A DNA stretch of 64,000 nucleotides from Microgenomates group bacterium (GTDB lineage: Bacteria > Patescibacteriota > Microgenomatia > UBA1406 > GWC2-37-13): contig JARYMT010000001.1 of the NCBI GenBank assembly GCA_029906985.1, forward strand, positions 131,223-195,222, read 5' to 3'. A program made the position numbers and the translations under genes. Shown in pieces: positions 20,825 to 25,448 of this stretch; positions within the stretch are counted from its first letter, which is position 1; each line of letters begins with the position of its first letter. The notes under the pieces are model-generated. The model did no database searches. It had not been told where the DNA came from and saw nothing but the letters and a program-made list of their open reading frames with translations.

Positions 20825-21892
20825 TTACCTGTAGGTGACTGGTTTTTCTTTTTGAGGAAGAACCAGGCTCATTCGCCGGTTTTTTTGGTTTATTCTTTCA
20901 ACCATTGCTTTGACCTTTTGACCGCTTTTTAGATCTTCTTTTCCGGTTAATTTACTTATATGAATTAAGCCCTCAACCCCTGGTTCAAGCCTAATAAAAT
21001 AACCATATTTTTCCTTTCTAACAACCTCTCCTACTACTTCTTTATTTTTTGGATATTTTTCTTCAATTTTTTCCCAAGGATCGCGGCTTAATCTTTTAAT
21101 TGATAAATTAAGTTTAAAATCGGTGGGATTTTTTTCCACCACCATAACTTTAATAGTTTCTCCGGGTTTTACGTATGAAGATGGATTGCTTACTTTCTCC
21201 CAAGAAATTTCAGAAATATGAACTAGGCCCTCAACCCCGTTTACCTCACAAAAAATACCAAAATCAGAGACGCCTAAAACCTTTGCCTGATAAACTTCGC
21301 CCACCTTCATTTGATTAAATTTTTTAGCTAATTCTTTTTGAGAGATTTTTAAGGCAGCTGCTTTTTGAGATACCACAAGACGGTTTTTTTCTTGTTCCAC
21401 TTCAAGAATTTTAACCCGGATTTTTTTATTAAGAAGTTTTTCAGGTTGGTTGAGATATTCTTCGGTTAGTTGAATTTTGGGAATCACTCCTCTGATTCCC
21501 ATAAAATCAACAAATACCCCTCCCTTTCCATATTCACCACAAACCACCTCTATTTCCTCTTCTTTTTCTTTCCTGTTTTTTAAGATTTCCCACTTCCCTT
21601 TTTCAAAAAAACCACGTAAAGAAACAACCGGGAAACCGTCTTTTGACTCTTCGGAAATAACTTTTACCGTTGTTGTTTCTCCTGCTTTGAGGTGAGGAAG
21701 ATAGGTAGAGATTTCTTTAAGTTCTTTATTACCTAAAACCGCATAGGCTTTGGCGCCGATATCAAAAAACACTCCTTTTTTGGAGACGGAAACTATTTTA
21801 GCCTGAATTTCTTCGCCTTTTTTTATTTTTCTTGGGCTTTTGTTTTTTAACAATCTTTCCATTATGTTGGTTTGTTTTATTGTTGTTTTCAT
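20825..21892 (-). CDS. rpsA: Ribosomal protein S1-like protein (four S1 domains)
   Basis: About 355 residues with four S1 RNA-binding repeats: near 15-85 (EIQAKIVSVSKKGVFFDIG), 100-170 (VVCGEYGKGGVFVDFMGIRG), 185-255 (YQAKVLGVSDFGIFCEVNG), and 270-340 (VVGEVVRKEKYGYFIRLEPG). S1 holds mRNA on the 30S subunit; the four-domain size matches many Gram-positive-type S1 proteins. Upstream ATG and earlier codons lie inside the promoter (-35 TTGTTT, 17-nt spacer, -10 TATATT at 21936-21908), so I place the start at 21892 (MKTTIKQ); an ATG ten codons later is also possible. Given the many leaderless genes here, S1 and leaderless initiation coexist. Confidence 0.85.
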   Translation of the reverse strand: MKTTIKQTNIMERLLKNKSPRKIKKGEEIQAKIVSVSKKGVFFDIGAKAYAVLGNKELKEISTYLPHLKAGETTTVKVISEESKDGFPVVSLRGFFEKGKWEILKNRKEKEEEIEVVCGEYGKGGVFVDFMGIRGVIPKIQLTEEYLNQPEKLLNKKIRVKILEVEQEKNRLVVSQKAAALKISQKELAKKFNQMKVGEVYQAKVLGVSDFGIFCEVNGVEGLVHISEISWEKVSNPSSYVKPGETIKVMVVEKNPTDFKLNLSIKRLSRDPWEKIEEKYPKNKEVVGEVVRKEKYGYFIRLEPGVEGLIHISKLTGKEDLKSGQKVKAMVERINQKNRRMSLVLPQKEKPVTYR

Positions 21893-21907
21893 TTTGGTTA
21901 AGATAAT

Positions 21908-21936
21908 AATATACCAAACCATCGATAAAAAAACAA
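21908..21936 (-). promoter_or_regulatory. Promoter of the S1-like gene
   Basis: Minus strand TTGTTT (21936-21931), 17-nt spacer, TATATT (21913-21908). It rules out the longest reading frame's ATG at 21922, which lies in the spacer. Confidence 0.6.
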
Positions 21937-21972: not shown

Positions 21973-22001
21973 TTGCAAAATAAGACCCTGCATGATATAT
22001 T
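21973..22001 (+). promoter_or_regulatory. Promoter of the Xer-like gene
   Basis: TTGCAA (21973-21978), 17-nt spacer, TATATT (21996-22001). The ATG at 22014 starts 12 nt later, giving a leader of about 6 nt or less. Confidence 0.65.
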
Positions 22002-22013
22002 ATGGGTTAGTGT

Positions 22014-22883
22014 ATGGAAAATTATTTGCTTCCTTCTCTTTTAAAGCGTTTTCTTGATTTTTTAAAAGATCAAGAAAGATCAGATTTTACCAGAGTTGCC
22101 TATAAAAAAGATCTTGAGCAGTTTATAGGCTATCTCTCCACAAAAGAAAAAAGCGATATCCGTGAAGTAAAAAAAGAAGATATCGAGGGATTTATTAATA
22201 AGCTTTTGGCGGAAAACTATACTAAAAAGTCTGCCTCAAGGAAACTTAATTCTATCCGCTCTTTTTATCGTTATTTAAAAAACGAAAAAATTATTGAACA
22301 AAATCCCTCTTTAGACATCTCTCATCCAAAATATATGCAATCCCCGCCACGAATTTTTAGTAAATTAGAATACCGGGCCTTAAGGGATGTCGCCAAAGAA
22401 GATCCCCGAACTTATGCTTTGGTAGAAATTCTTTTACAAACCGGTTTAAAAATTGGCGAACTCGCCAATCTACGTTTTTCTGATATTAAAGAAGAATCTC
22501 TTTATATTAGAAGCTATGGAAAAAGCCCGGCAAGAAGCATTCCCTTAAACAAATCAACCAAGCAGGCAATTGAAGATTATTTAAAAATTCGTCCAAGCGA
22601 TCGAAAAAACGGTGAAGATTTTCTTTTTATTACCCGTACCGGCCGGCCCCTATTGATTAGAAACATTAGGCAAATTATTGCCCGCTGTTTTCGTGAAGTG
22701 GGAATCGAAAACGCAACGGTTAATGACTTAAGAAATACCTTTATTGCATATCAATTGAAAAATGGTGTTCCAATTGATTATGTGGCAAAAATTGTCGGCC
22801 ACCGCCGTCTTTCCTCAACCGAAAGATTTTTAAGCCTAATAAAAGAAGGGGTAGAAAAAAAGGGCCGGTTGGGAGAGCTTTAA
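22014..22883 (+). CDS. Tyrosine-recombinase-fold protein lacking catalytic residues (Xer-like)
   Basis: 289 residues with both XerC/D domains: SAM-like core-binding (about 5-95) and catalytic fold (about 115-280). Aligning by motif, the first arginine is Lys (TGLKIGEL, K146); the beta-hairpin Lys is kept (K170); box II HxxR is NDLR (N237, R240), followed by Asn instead of His/Lys; the GH pair is kept (H263); and the nucleophilic Tyr is Phe (TERFLSL, F272, codon TTT). So three of six active-site positions, including the nucleophile, are lost, while the frame is intact. It cannot cleave DNA by the known mechanism; it may bind DNA or partner an active Xer. It is convergent with dnaN, 3 nt apart. 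Confidence 0.85.
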   Translation: MENYLLPSLLKRFLDFLKDQERSDFTRVAYKKDLEQFIGYLSTKEKSDIREVKKEDIEGFINKLLAENYTKKSASRKLNSIRSFYRYLKNEKIIEQNPSLDISHPKYMQSPPRIFSKLEYRALRDVAKEDPRTYALVEILLQTGLKIGELANLRFSDIKEESLYIRSYGKSPARSIPLNKSTKQAIEDYLKIRPSDRKNGEDFLFITRTGRPLLIRNIRQIIARCFREVGIENATVNDLRNTFIAYQLKNGVPIDYVAKIVGHRRLSSTERFLSLIKEGVEKKGRLGEL

Positions 22884-22886
22884 TTT

Positions 22887-23993
22887 TTATCCCTCTTCTT
22901 GAATTCTGACCGGCATTATTATATGAAGATATTCCGGGATTTTGTCGCTTTTAAAAACTACTGGCGCATCGGATCTTAATATTTCTATAAAGATTTTTTC
23001 TCCGCCAACTTGGTTTAAAAAATCAAGCAGAAATTTAAAATTAAAAGCCACTTTTTGTTCTTCTCCTTCGAGACCGATTTCTTGAAAGGCGGTATTTTGG
23101 TCTTTTTCCTCGGCCCGCGACCGAAGATATAATCCTTCTTTTTGAAAATCCAAAATAATAACATTTGATTTTTCTCGAACAAAAACAGAAATTATTTTTA
23201 TTTTTTGTTGAAGCTCTTCCCGGTCAACTTCAACCACCGTTTTCCTTTCGGTAGGAATTACTTTTTCAAACGGAGGAAATTCTCCTTCGATTAAACGAGA
23301 AAAAATAGTTGACTCCCCGAGACTAAAGGCCAACATTTTTTCTTCCGAAAGATAATTAACCAAAACCCCTTCTTCGTCTGTTATTATTTTTAAAACTTCA
23401 CCCAGGGTTTCGGCTGGGATTATTGCTTGTGGAAAAACTTCTTGTCTTTTTGTTTTTAAAAGTGAGAGACGAAAGCCGTCGGTGGTAACAATTTTTGTTT
23501 CTTCTTCTTGAGAGACAAAATTAACACCGGTTAAAACTGGTCGAGAAATATCGCTCGAGGACGAAAAAAGAACCAGGGCGATTTTTTTAAAAAAACTTGC
23601 CGGTATTTTTTGGCCTTTTCCCTTGGTTTTTGGAGGTAAAGGAAAATCTTTTTCTTCAAGAAGAGGAAAGCTTCCTTTTGTTTTTTCTTTGTTTATAATC
23701 ACCTGGTTATTGGTTATTTCGATATTAATCTCCCCTGGTGGAAGAAGAGATAAAAATTCAATTATTTTTTTCGGTTCTACAACAATATTAAAACTGTCGT
23801 TTTTTTTATTTTTCAATTCTAAAAAACTCACAAAATATGAATTTAGATTAGTAGAAAAAAAACCAATTCCCTTTTCTTCGCTTTTAATTAGAACCCCCTG
23901 TAAAGAAGAAGAAGATAATAATCGATAACTTGTAAATCTATTAGCTAAGGAAATTTTTTCTAAAAACCTTTTCCCATCAACAGTAATTCTCAT
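22887..23993 (-). CDS. dnaN: DNA polymerase III beta subunit (sliding clamp)
   Basis: 368 residues, the usual clamp length, with three repeated domains. Recognisable parts are MRITVDGKRFLEKISLANRF at the start, SLLPPGEINIEITNNQVII (about 73-91), VLTGVNFVSQEEETKIVTTD then GFRL (about 151-174), and the C-terminal PVVFKSDKIPEYLHIIMPVR (about 344-363), whose IMPVR end is the classic clamp terminus. The ring tethers the replicative polymerase. It lies 120 nt downstream of dnaA on the same strand, the ancestral dnaA-dnaN order. Confidence 0.95.
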   Translation of the reverse strand: MRITVDGKRFLEKISLANRFTSYRLLSSSSLQGVLIKSEEKGIGFFSTNLNSYFVSFLELKNKKNDSFNIVVEPKKIIEFLSLLPPGEINIEITNNQVIINKEKTKGSFPLLEEKDFPLPPKTKGKGQKIPASFFKKIALVLFSSSSDISRPVLTGVNFVSQEEETKIVTTDGFRLSLLKTKRQEVFPQAIIPAETLGEVLKIITDEEGVLVNYLSEEKMLAFSLGESTIFSRLIEGEFPPFEKVIPTERKTVVEVDREELQQKIKIISVFVREKSNVIILDFQKEGLYLRSRAEEKDQNTAFQEIGLEGEEQKVAFNFKFLLDFLNQVGGEKIFIEILRSDAPVVFKSDKIPEYLHIIMPVRIQEEG

Positions 23994-24113: not shown

Positions 24114-25448
24114 CTATGTTGATAAATCAAGAGAGGCAAGAATCTGATCAACTTCTTTTTTAAATAATGGATCCTTTGCTAGGAGGCGGCTTATTTTATC
24201 AACCGCATGAAGAACCGTTGTGTGGTCTTTTCTTCTTAAGTAACTAGCGACGTCTTCGAGTCTTAATTTTAAAACATTTCTTAATATATACATTGATAGC
24301 TGTCGAGGGAGAACCAGGTTTTTTTCCCGGGAGGGCCCCTTAAGATGGATGGTCTTTAGATTATAAAAAGAACAAATTGCCCGAATAATTTCTTCTGGGG
24401 AGGTTTTTTTTCTTTGTTGTTGTTCTTGGTTGTTAAAAAAAGAAGCAATTGTTTCAAGATCGATTTTTTCCTTTTTTCCGAGGGTTTTAGCGTATACCGA
24501 AAGAAGGGTTCCTTCAAGCGCCCTAGTGTCCTCGATTCTTTCGGCAATTATTCTTGCCGCATCAATATCAATTTCTATCTTTTTTTCTTTGGCTTTAATT
24601 AAAACAATCGCCGTTCTTAATTCAAAGTCCGGCGGTTGAATATCGACCGTTAATCCACCAGAAAACCTTGACCTTAGCCGGTCTTCAAGCCCCTTTATTT
24701 CAATTGGGGGTCGATCGGAAATCAAAACAATTTGTCCCCCAGCTGAAATAATAGAATTAAAAGTATGAAAAAACTCTTCTTGGACCGTTTGCTTTCCAGC
24801 GATAAACTGAACATCATCAACTACCAAAAGATCAAGCCGACGGTATTTTCGCCGAAATTTTGATGTTGCCCTTTCTCTAATTGACTCAATTAGTTCGTTG
24901 GTAAAAAGGTCACCGGGGCAAAAAAAAACCTTTTTTTCACTTTTTTCTTCAATAATCTTTCTGGCAATTGCTTGAGCCAGATGAGTTTTTCCAACGCCGA
25001 CGCCACCGTAAATAAAAAGAGGGTTGTAGGCGCTCCCCAAATTATTAACCACTGCTTGAGCGGCAGCATAAGCAACTTGATTAGTTGACGAGACAGCAAA
25101 ATTATCAAAACTGTATTTTATAAGTAGGCCGGCTGCCGAAAGACGGTCGCTAACACTTGGTTGATAGTCAAAAAGGGGCGGTGGGGGGCCCGTTTCTTTT
25201 TTTTCGATTAAGACAAAATTTACCAACAGTTTTTTTCTAGTGGTCTGATAAATAATTTCTTCAATTTCTTTTGCTCTCTTATCTAGAAAAAATTTTAACC
25301 CCTGATTGCTGCACCCCAAAACCAGCAAGGAGTCTTTTAATGCGATAGGCCTTACTTGTTTTAACAAAGACAATAAAACAGAGGGGTTTTTTGGCTGTTC
25401 GGCCGCCAATTTTAAAAATTCAGTCCAAAATAAAGTTGAAGAAACCAT
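24114..25448 (-). CDS. dnaA: Chromosomal replication initiator DnaA
   Basis: 444 residues. Domain I (1-85) and a short linker come first. The AAA+ domain has GGVGVGKTHLAQAIARKI (Walker A, about 147-164), LDLLVVDDVQFIAGK (Walker B, about 205-219), and IVLISDRPPIEIKGLEDRLR (about 239-258). Domain IV has the DnaA signature LSMYILRNVLKLRLEDVASY then LRRKDHTTVLHAVDKI (about 386-421). DnaA melts the origin and also represses its own gene. The start at 25448 is 5 nt from a pair of perfect DnaA boxes. Confidence 0.97.
   Translation of the reverse strand: MVSSTLFWTEFLKLAAEQPKNPSVLLSLLKQVRPIALKDSLLVLGCSNQGLKFFLDKRAKEIEEIIYQTTRKKLLVNFVLIEKKETGPPPPLFDYQPSVSDRLSAAGLLIKYSFDNFAVSSTNQVAYAAAQAVVNNLGSAYNPLFIYGGVGVGKTHLAQAIARKIIEEKSEKKVFFCPGDLFTNELIESIRERATSKFRRKYRRLDLLVVDDVQFIAGKQTVQEEFFHTFNSIISAGGQIVLISDRPPIEIKGLEDRLRSRFSGGLTVDIQPPDFELRTAIVLIKAKEKKIEIDIDAARIIAERIEDTRALEGTLLSVYAKTLGKKEKIDLETIASFFNNQEQQQRKKTSPEEIIRAICSFYNLKTIHLKGPSREKNLVLPRQLSMYILRNVLKLRLEDVASYLRRKDHTTVLHAVDKISRLLAKDPLFKKEVDQILASLDLST

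Follow-up and report, generated by a model that had tools for sequence, protein, structure and literature searches.

The N-Xer gene and its locus

The window, a stretch of 64,000 nucleotides from a Microgenomates group bacterium, contains an intact open reading frame encoding a protein of 289 residues with a tyrosine-recombinase fold. We call this protein N-Xer, after the Asn in its box II. The gene is convergent with dnaN and dnaA, as a sequence-only reading of this DNA had described, and 3 bases separate the stop codons of N-Xer and dnaN. The features of the locus are:

20825..21922, minus strand: S1-domain protein, a divergent neighbor in many Roizmanbacteria
21973..22001, plus strand: extended promoter TTGCAA-17-TATATT with TG before the -10, conserved across relatives
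21993..22006, plus strand: N-Xer start element TGATATATTATGGG, overlapping the -10, near-unique in the genome and a candidate self-operator
22014..22883, plus strand: N-Xer gene, two-domain tyrosine-recombinase-fold protein of 289 residues that lacks catalytic residues
22449..22451, plus strand: codon AAA, Lys146, at the Arg I position in the alignment with active Xers
22722..22724, plus strand: codon AAT, Asn237, at the box II His position
22827..22829, plus strand: codon TTT, Phe272, at the position of the nucleophilic Tyr
22887..23993, minus strand: dnaN, convergent neighbor, local to part of the window's family
24114..25448, minus strand: dnaA, convergent with the N-Xer gene

Both Xer domains are present. 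Pfam identifies PF00589 (E=4e-25) and PF02899 (E=4e-18), the phage-integrase and SAM-like core-binding domains. The AlphaFold2 model has the full fold with a mean pLDDT of 90. It matches XerA, lambda Int, XerH, Cre and XerD in the PDB, with XerA and XerD the best. N-Xer therefore has the core-binding and catalytic domains of a Xer recombinase. Its NCBIfam scores are 161.3 bits for XerD, 155.7 for XerC and 135.7 for XerA, under the respective cut-offs of 329.6, 335.15 and 220 bits.

The active site is different. The catalytic set of these enzymes is R-K-H-R-H/W plus the Tyr nucleophile, and the window protein has K, N and F in place of R, H and Y. Codons and an alignment with active Xers place all three substitutions exactly where the sequence-only reading had put them: K146 aligns with Arg I and N237 with the box II His, and F272 falls in the exact Tyr column, nine residues after the His ('GHRRLSSTERF' versus 'GHKNIATTQIY'). 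The placement of the Phe272 side chain is based on this sequence alignment rather than on model coordinates. R240 and H263 are retained. K170, also said to be conserved, is plausibly aligned with the β-hairpin Lys. These observations confirm that the window gene encodes a full-length two-domain Xer protein without the cutting residues.

Distribution and selection

The host genome (953 kb, 98% complete) encodes two PF00589 proteins. The second, on another contig, is a canonical Xer with the residues R-K-H-R-H-Y and is 25% identical to N-Xer. An active Xer, which had been proposed as a partner, is thus encoded elsewhere in the genome. Orthologues of the window protein with 44-76% identity are found in 53 of 57 relatives. 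N-Xer is also present in 60 of 240 genomes sampled across the phylum, a count that omits weak, divergent matches in four genomes (G068, G108, G133 and G184). The box II residue of the two weak matches read in sequence, those in G068 and G184, is His or Phe, not Asn. Named N-Xer records are mostly from Roizmanbacteria, and others are from Woesebacteria, Gottesmanbacteria and Levybacteria.

On a tree made with a quick method, N-Xer proteins form a single clade on a long branch apart from all active Xers (SH-aLRT 95-96), although the placement of a few long-branch members is unsure. No viral, phage or plasmid orthologue was found, nor a match to a defence family, and an origin from a mobile element was rejected. 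The distribution is best read as vertical inheritance across a large part of Patescibacteria.

The loss of active-site residues could mean that N-Xer is a decaying pseudogene or a degenerate prophage integrase. However, the listed close orthologues have full-length frames with no stops. Pairwise dN/dS, a check suggested along with the initial claim, is about 0.03-0.09 in the Phe group and the Tyr group alike (values with dS >2 are rough), indicating strong purifying selection. This selection refutes decay. The vertical distribution, the conserved promoter and the lack of viral orthologues also count against it, and we consider this explanation highly improbable.

Additional copies are found in two genomes. 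One (L091, G103:C1:26998-30213) encodes a second, still more degenerate N-Xer paralogue with the residues G-N-R-Y-F beside a normal N-Xer in the same genome. The other contains a partial extra copy (G139:C28:57824-58069), 51% identical over 82 residues and about 3 kb from the intact copy.

Graded loss of the active site

Comparison of 109 distinct orthologues showed that the active site was lost in stages. The box II His is missing in all 109 and is replaced by Asn in 103 and Gln in 6. None therefore has an intact Arg-His-Arg-Tyr set, the finding that had been named as refuting a non-cleaving role. Arg II is invariant and His III is present in 108. Just 64 have Lys at the β-hairpin position, and some have a shortened hairpin. 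Lys replaces Arg I in 56 of the orthologues, and the nucleophile position is Phe in 63 and Tyr in 46. The prediction that orthologues would lack the same residues holds for box II throughout, and for Lys and Phe in most close relatives. The distant members, in contrast, retain Arg I, Arg II, His III and Tyr, and the set RNRHY is found in 36 of the 109. At the C-terminus, an invariant Leu follows a near-invariant Glu.

The Phe group forms one branch on the tree (families f1 and f3), which includes a small Tyr group. The box II change is thus ancestral, and the nucleophile was lost later. The Arg-to-Lys and Tyr-to-Phe changes are largely restricted to the Roizmanbacteria branch; outside it, Lys or Phe is also seen in a few proteins on long branches. 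Both changes are late and mostly lineage-specific. Covalent tyrosyl-DNA chemistry in the window's lineage is excluded, judging by sequence, because the nucleophile is missing. Elsewhere in the family it is improbable, with some residual chemistry possible in the distant members, which keep both Arg I and Tyr.

These distant members raise the question of whether N-Xer is an unusual active recombinase, in which Asn replaces the box II His, other residues carry out the chemistry, and the Phe form is a local loss. Tyrosine recombinases mutated at the box II His can retain some activity, and the RNRHY set is consistent with this. In the window's lineage, however, Phe replaces the Tyr and Lys replaces Arg I, and many members have lost the β-hairpin Lys or have a shorter hairpin. 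The same genome also encodes an intact Xer, and a known protein with the same Asn, MrpR, is inactive (PMC10516654). An active N-Xer is therefore unlikely.

MrpR (YopR) is the master repressor of the Bacillus prophage SPβ. It has the tyrosine-recombinase fold and has lost recombinase function (PMC10516654). Its N254 is located at the position of Cre H289, a His-to-Asn change, and it is a non-recombining DNA-binding repressor of a repeated element (PMC10516654). N-Xer shares the fold, the loss of active-site residues and the Asn in box II. Unlike N-Xer, MrpR is a prophage repressor, keeps the Lys and the Tyr, and is less than 25% identical to recombinases (PMC10516654). N-Xer is a Xer paralogue that is encoded on the chromosome, inherited vertically and linked to divIC, with Phe for Tyr in the window's lineage. 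It is not prophage-encoded, and its element lies at its own promoter with no clear further copies. By this analogy, the best reading is that N-Xer would work like MrpR.

The dimer resolvases XerC, XerD and XerA share the two-domain fold with N-Xer. In contrast to them, N-Xer has no box II His, its β-hairpin Lys is not conserved, and the window copy also lacks the Tyr and Arg I. The streptococcal XerD-like protein is likewise a second, degenerate Xer homologue encoded beside chromosome-machinery genes. It belongs to another lineage and has other neighbors, and it is likened to N-Xer here by description. Our literature search found no description of an N-Xer-type family in Patescibacteria, which agrees with the earlier statement that no named family was known. 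A 2021 classification contains a 'Cand' subgroup of simple tyrosine recombinases from candidate phyla, apart from the Xer subgroup, whose members are treated together with class-specific proteins as possible compensation for Xer (PMC8138268). Like N-Xer, these are Xer-related proteins of candidate phyla; the main text describes no catalytic state, and the passages on the subgroup mention no missing catalytic residues (PMC8138268). The subgroup may contain N-Xer.

A conserved element at the N-Xer start

The sequence-only reading had noted a good promoter. The window promoter begins with TTGCAA at 21973 and its -10 ends at 22001, and it is conserved across relatives. Promoter-like matches in the region are otherwise at chance level (4 seen, 3.9 expected), so that conservation, not the match itself, distinguishes it. 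From its position, transcription is expected to start about 6 nt before the ATG, which would produce a nearly leaderless message.

Directly 5' of the ATG, many orthologues have TTGcaN-17-TGATATATTATRGG (f1) or GATATTATAGG (other families of the class). Of the 109 distinct loci, 55 have the start element at the N-Xer start (52 by direct count, plus 3 whose start is misplaced), and the 658 kb of flanking sequence contains no other copy. In 34 whole genomes, 11 of 12 exact copies of the 13-mer are at the N-Xer start. As a control, we compared the best upstream 13-mer of other genes at the same loci. It is shared by 14-33% of loci for ordinary genes, 58% for N-Xer and 67-68% for dnaA and dnaN, where it resembles the DnaA box. 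The 52% for VirB4 probably reflects overlap with upstream coding sequence. Conservation of the start element thus approaches that of the DnaA boxes before dnaA and dnaN, and is above that of ordinary promoters. Its information content is partly forced by the search pattern, and the case rests on the flank, whole-genome and upstream-13-mer controls.

A clear second set of copies beyond the N-Xer start, which could indicate a regulon, was sought and not found. Copies with one mismatch occur at seven loci in five genomes. In one pair (L254/L256), a similar small protein (about 50% identity) adjoins the site; a 33% match in another pair looks incidental. Because the element is conserved compared with control genes and near-unique in each genome, a specific operator is plausible from the sequences. 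Alternatively, it may be no more than an unusually fixed promoter of the extended -10 type whose leader is very short.

N-Xer is usually encoded beside divIC/ftsB

In the window's family (f1), the neighbors of N-Xer are either an S1-domain gene and dnaN/dnaA, variously oriented, or T4SS-like genes. An RNase H gene is often just downstream. The expected position beside dnaN holds for part of this family, whereas elsewhere divIC/ftsB adjoins. A role specific to the origin, which the dnaN-dnaA neighborhood had suggested, was rejected for this reason. Outside f1, a DivIC/FtsB gene (PF04977) is located within 1.2 kb of N-Xer in 52 of 56 genomes and is divergent from it in 45 of the 56. Members of f1, including the window gene, are not beside divIC; in the window's genome the DivIC gene is 43 kb from N-Xer, just beyond the end of the window. 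The conserved neighbor of N-Xer is therefore the division gene divIC/ftsB, and the dnaN neighborhood is local. Genes for tRNA-Met (CAT) and tRNA-Ile (TAT) often flank the divIC/N-Xer pair, also in distant families (L036-L089, L162-L170).

Six genomes that lack N-Xer but belong to N-Xer-bearing families have no credible DivIC either, with the limit that Pfam misses diverged DivIC. In a seventh (G158), DivIC is present at the end of a contig, with the expected place of N-Xer beyond the break. The joint presence and absence of the two genes gives a Fisher value of 1e-6, which overstates independence because the genes are adjacent and a joint absence can result from a single deletion or a single assembly gap.

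Relation to active Xers and SMC-ScpAB

A canonical Xer is found in nearly all related genomes. In family f33 (L176-L186, L202) it is a long form of about 430-480 residues with insertions instead of the usual 310-residue one. N-Xer as a replacement for Xer in f33 was rejected, since these genomes have this longer canonical protein. In one Roizmanbacterium, the active Xer is split by an intein at box II (LRH^C) within a 707-residue frame on the minus strand (L061, G026:C1:885598-888966). The intein carries a LAGLIDADG endonuclease (PF14890, PF14528) and is thus inserted in the active site of the recombinase. In two genomes, G209 and G125 (95 and 97% complete), N-Xer is the sole PF00589 protein found.

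The presence of one canonical Xer in almost every N-Xer genome is consistent with N-Xer being a non-cleaving partner. In this case it would sit on one dif half-site, where it shapes or licenses synapsis, and leave the chemistry to the active Xer. XerC and XerD of other bacteria form such pairs at the recombination site. The invariant C-terminal Leu after the near-invariant Glu could dock on a neighboring subunit, as Xer C-termini do, and the divIC link suits recombination timed to the septum. However, N-Xer is dispensable for the reaction, as most Patescibacteria have an active Xer but no N-Xer, and G209 and G125 keep N-Xer with no active Xer found. A dif-like pattern search matched 28 of 34 genomes, with control patterns about as frequent, and yielded no consistent single site per genome. 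We regard this partnership as possible, but it is not our preferred explanation.

A role independent of cutting is known for one Xer protein: XerD of Bacillus subtilis has been reported to unload SMC-ScpAB without cutting. N-Xer could similarly bind the chromosome to unload or position SMC-ScpAB. We searched the 240-genome sample for ScpA, the SMC kleisin, and found it in none of the 60 true N-Xer genomes. It is present in 85 of the other 180, comprising 81 of 176 without any N-Xer-like match and all four with weak matches. This pattern follows clades and carries no causal statement. Because N-Xer genomes are without ScpA, unloading by N-Xer is largely refuted and very improbable.

Proposed role of N-Xer

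A selected, non-cleaving role, as the sequence-only reading had proposed, is the best reading: orthologues exist, purifying selection on them is strong, and all of them lack the box II His. We propose that N-Xer is a retired, vertically inherited Xer paralogue that binds DNA without cleaving it, probably regulates its own expression and is linked to division, and assign this a probability of roughly 0.5. The MrpR precedent, the low likelihood of a ScpA-dependent role and the missing chemistry favor such a self-controlled factor with a tie to divIC over a structural role beside the active Xer at dif. What we observe directly are the lesions and how they are distributed, the purifying selection, the linkage to divIC and the conserved, near-unique promoter element. 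The DNA binding and its targets, the autoregulation and the effect on divIC are what we infer from them.

In this proposal, N-Xer is a paralogue of the Xer chromosome-dimer recombinase whose catalysis was retired. It would keep the C-shaped DNA-binding clamp without forming a covalent tyrosyl-DNA bond, and most probably recognizes specific DNA and leaves it uncut. It would repress or tune its own promoter at the conserved element over the -10. Its ancestral action may have been control of the divergently transcribed divIC/ftsB, and it would help coordinate the chromosome state with cell division. More tentatively, N-Xer could be an undescribed division or chromosome-organization factor of Patescibacteria, a self-regulated DNA clamp acting with DivIC/FtsB as part of chromosome-septum coupling where SMC-ScpAB is absent.

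Family searches place N-Xer proteins near XerC/XerD although the catalytic residues are missing. Dimer resolution inferred from a Xer match in Patescibacteria could therefore count the wrong protein. The cutting residues are lost, yet among these ultra-small bacteria the gene is kept intact, spread over classes, under strong selection and usually beside a division gene, which suggests a role in DNA binding only. This would extend the reuse of a recombinase as a DNA-binding factor, seen in MrpR, from one prophage to chromosomal genes of a large radiation. In bacteria without ScpA, it also offers a connection between a Xer-derived clamp and cell division that can be tested.
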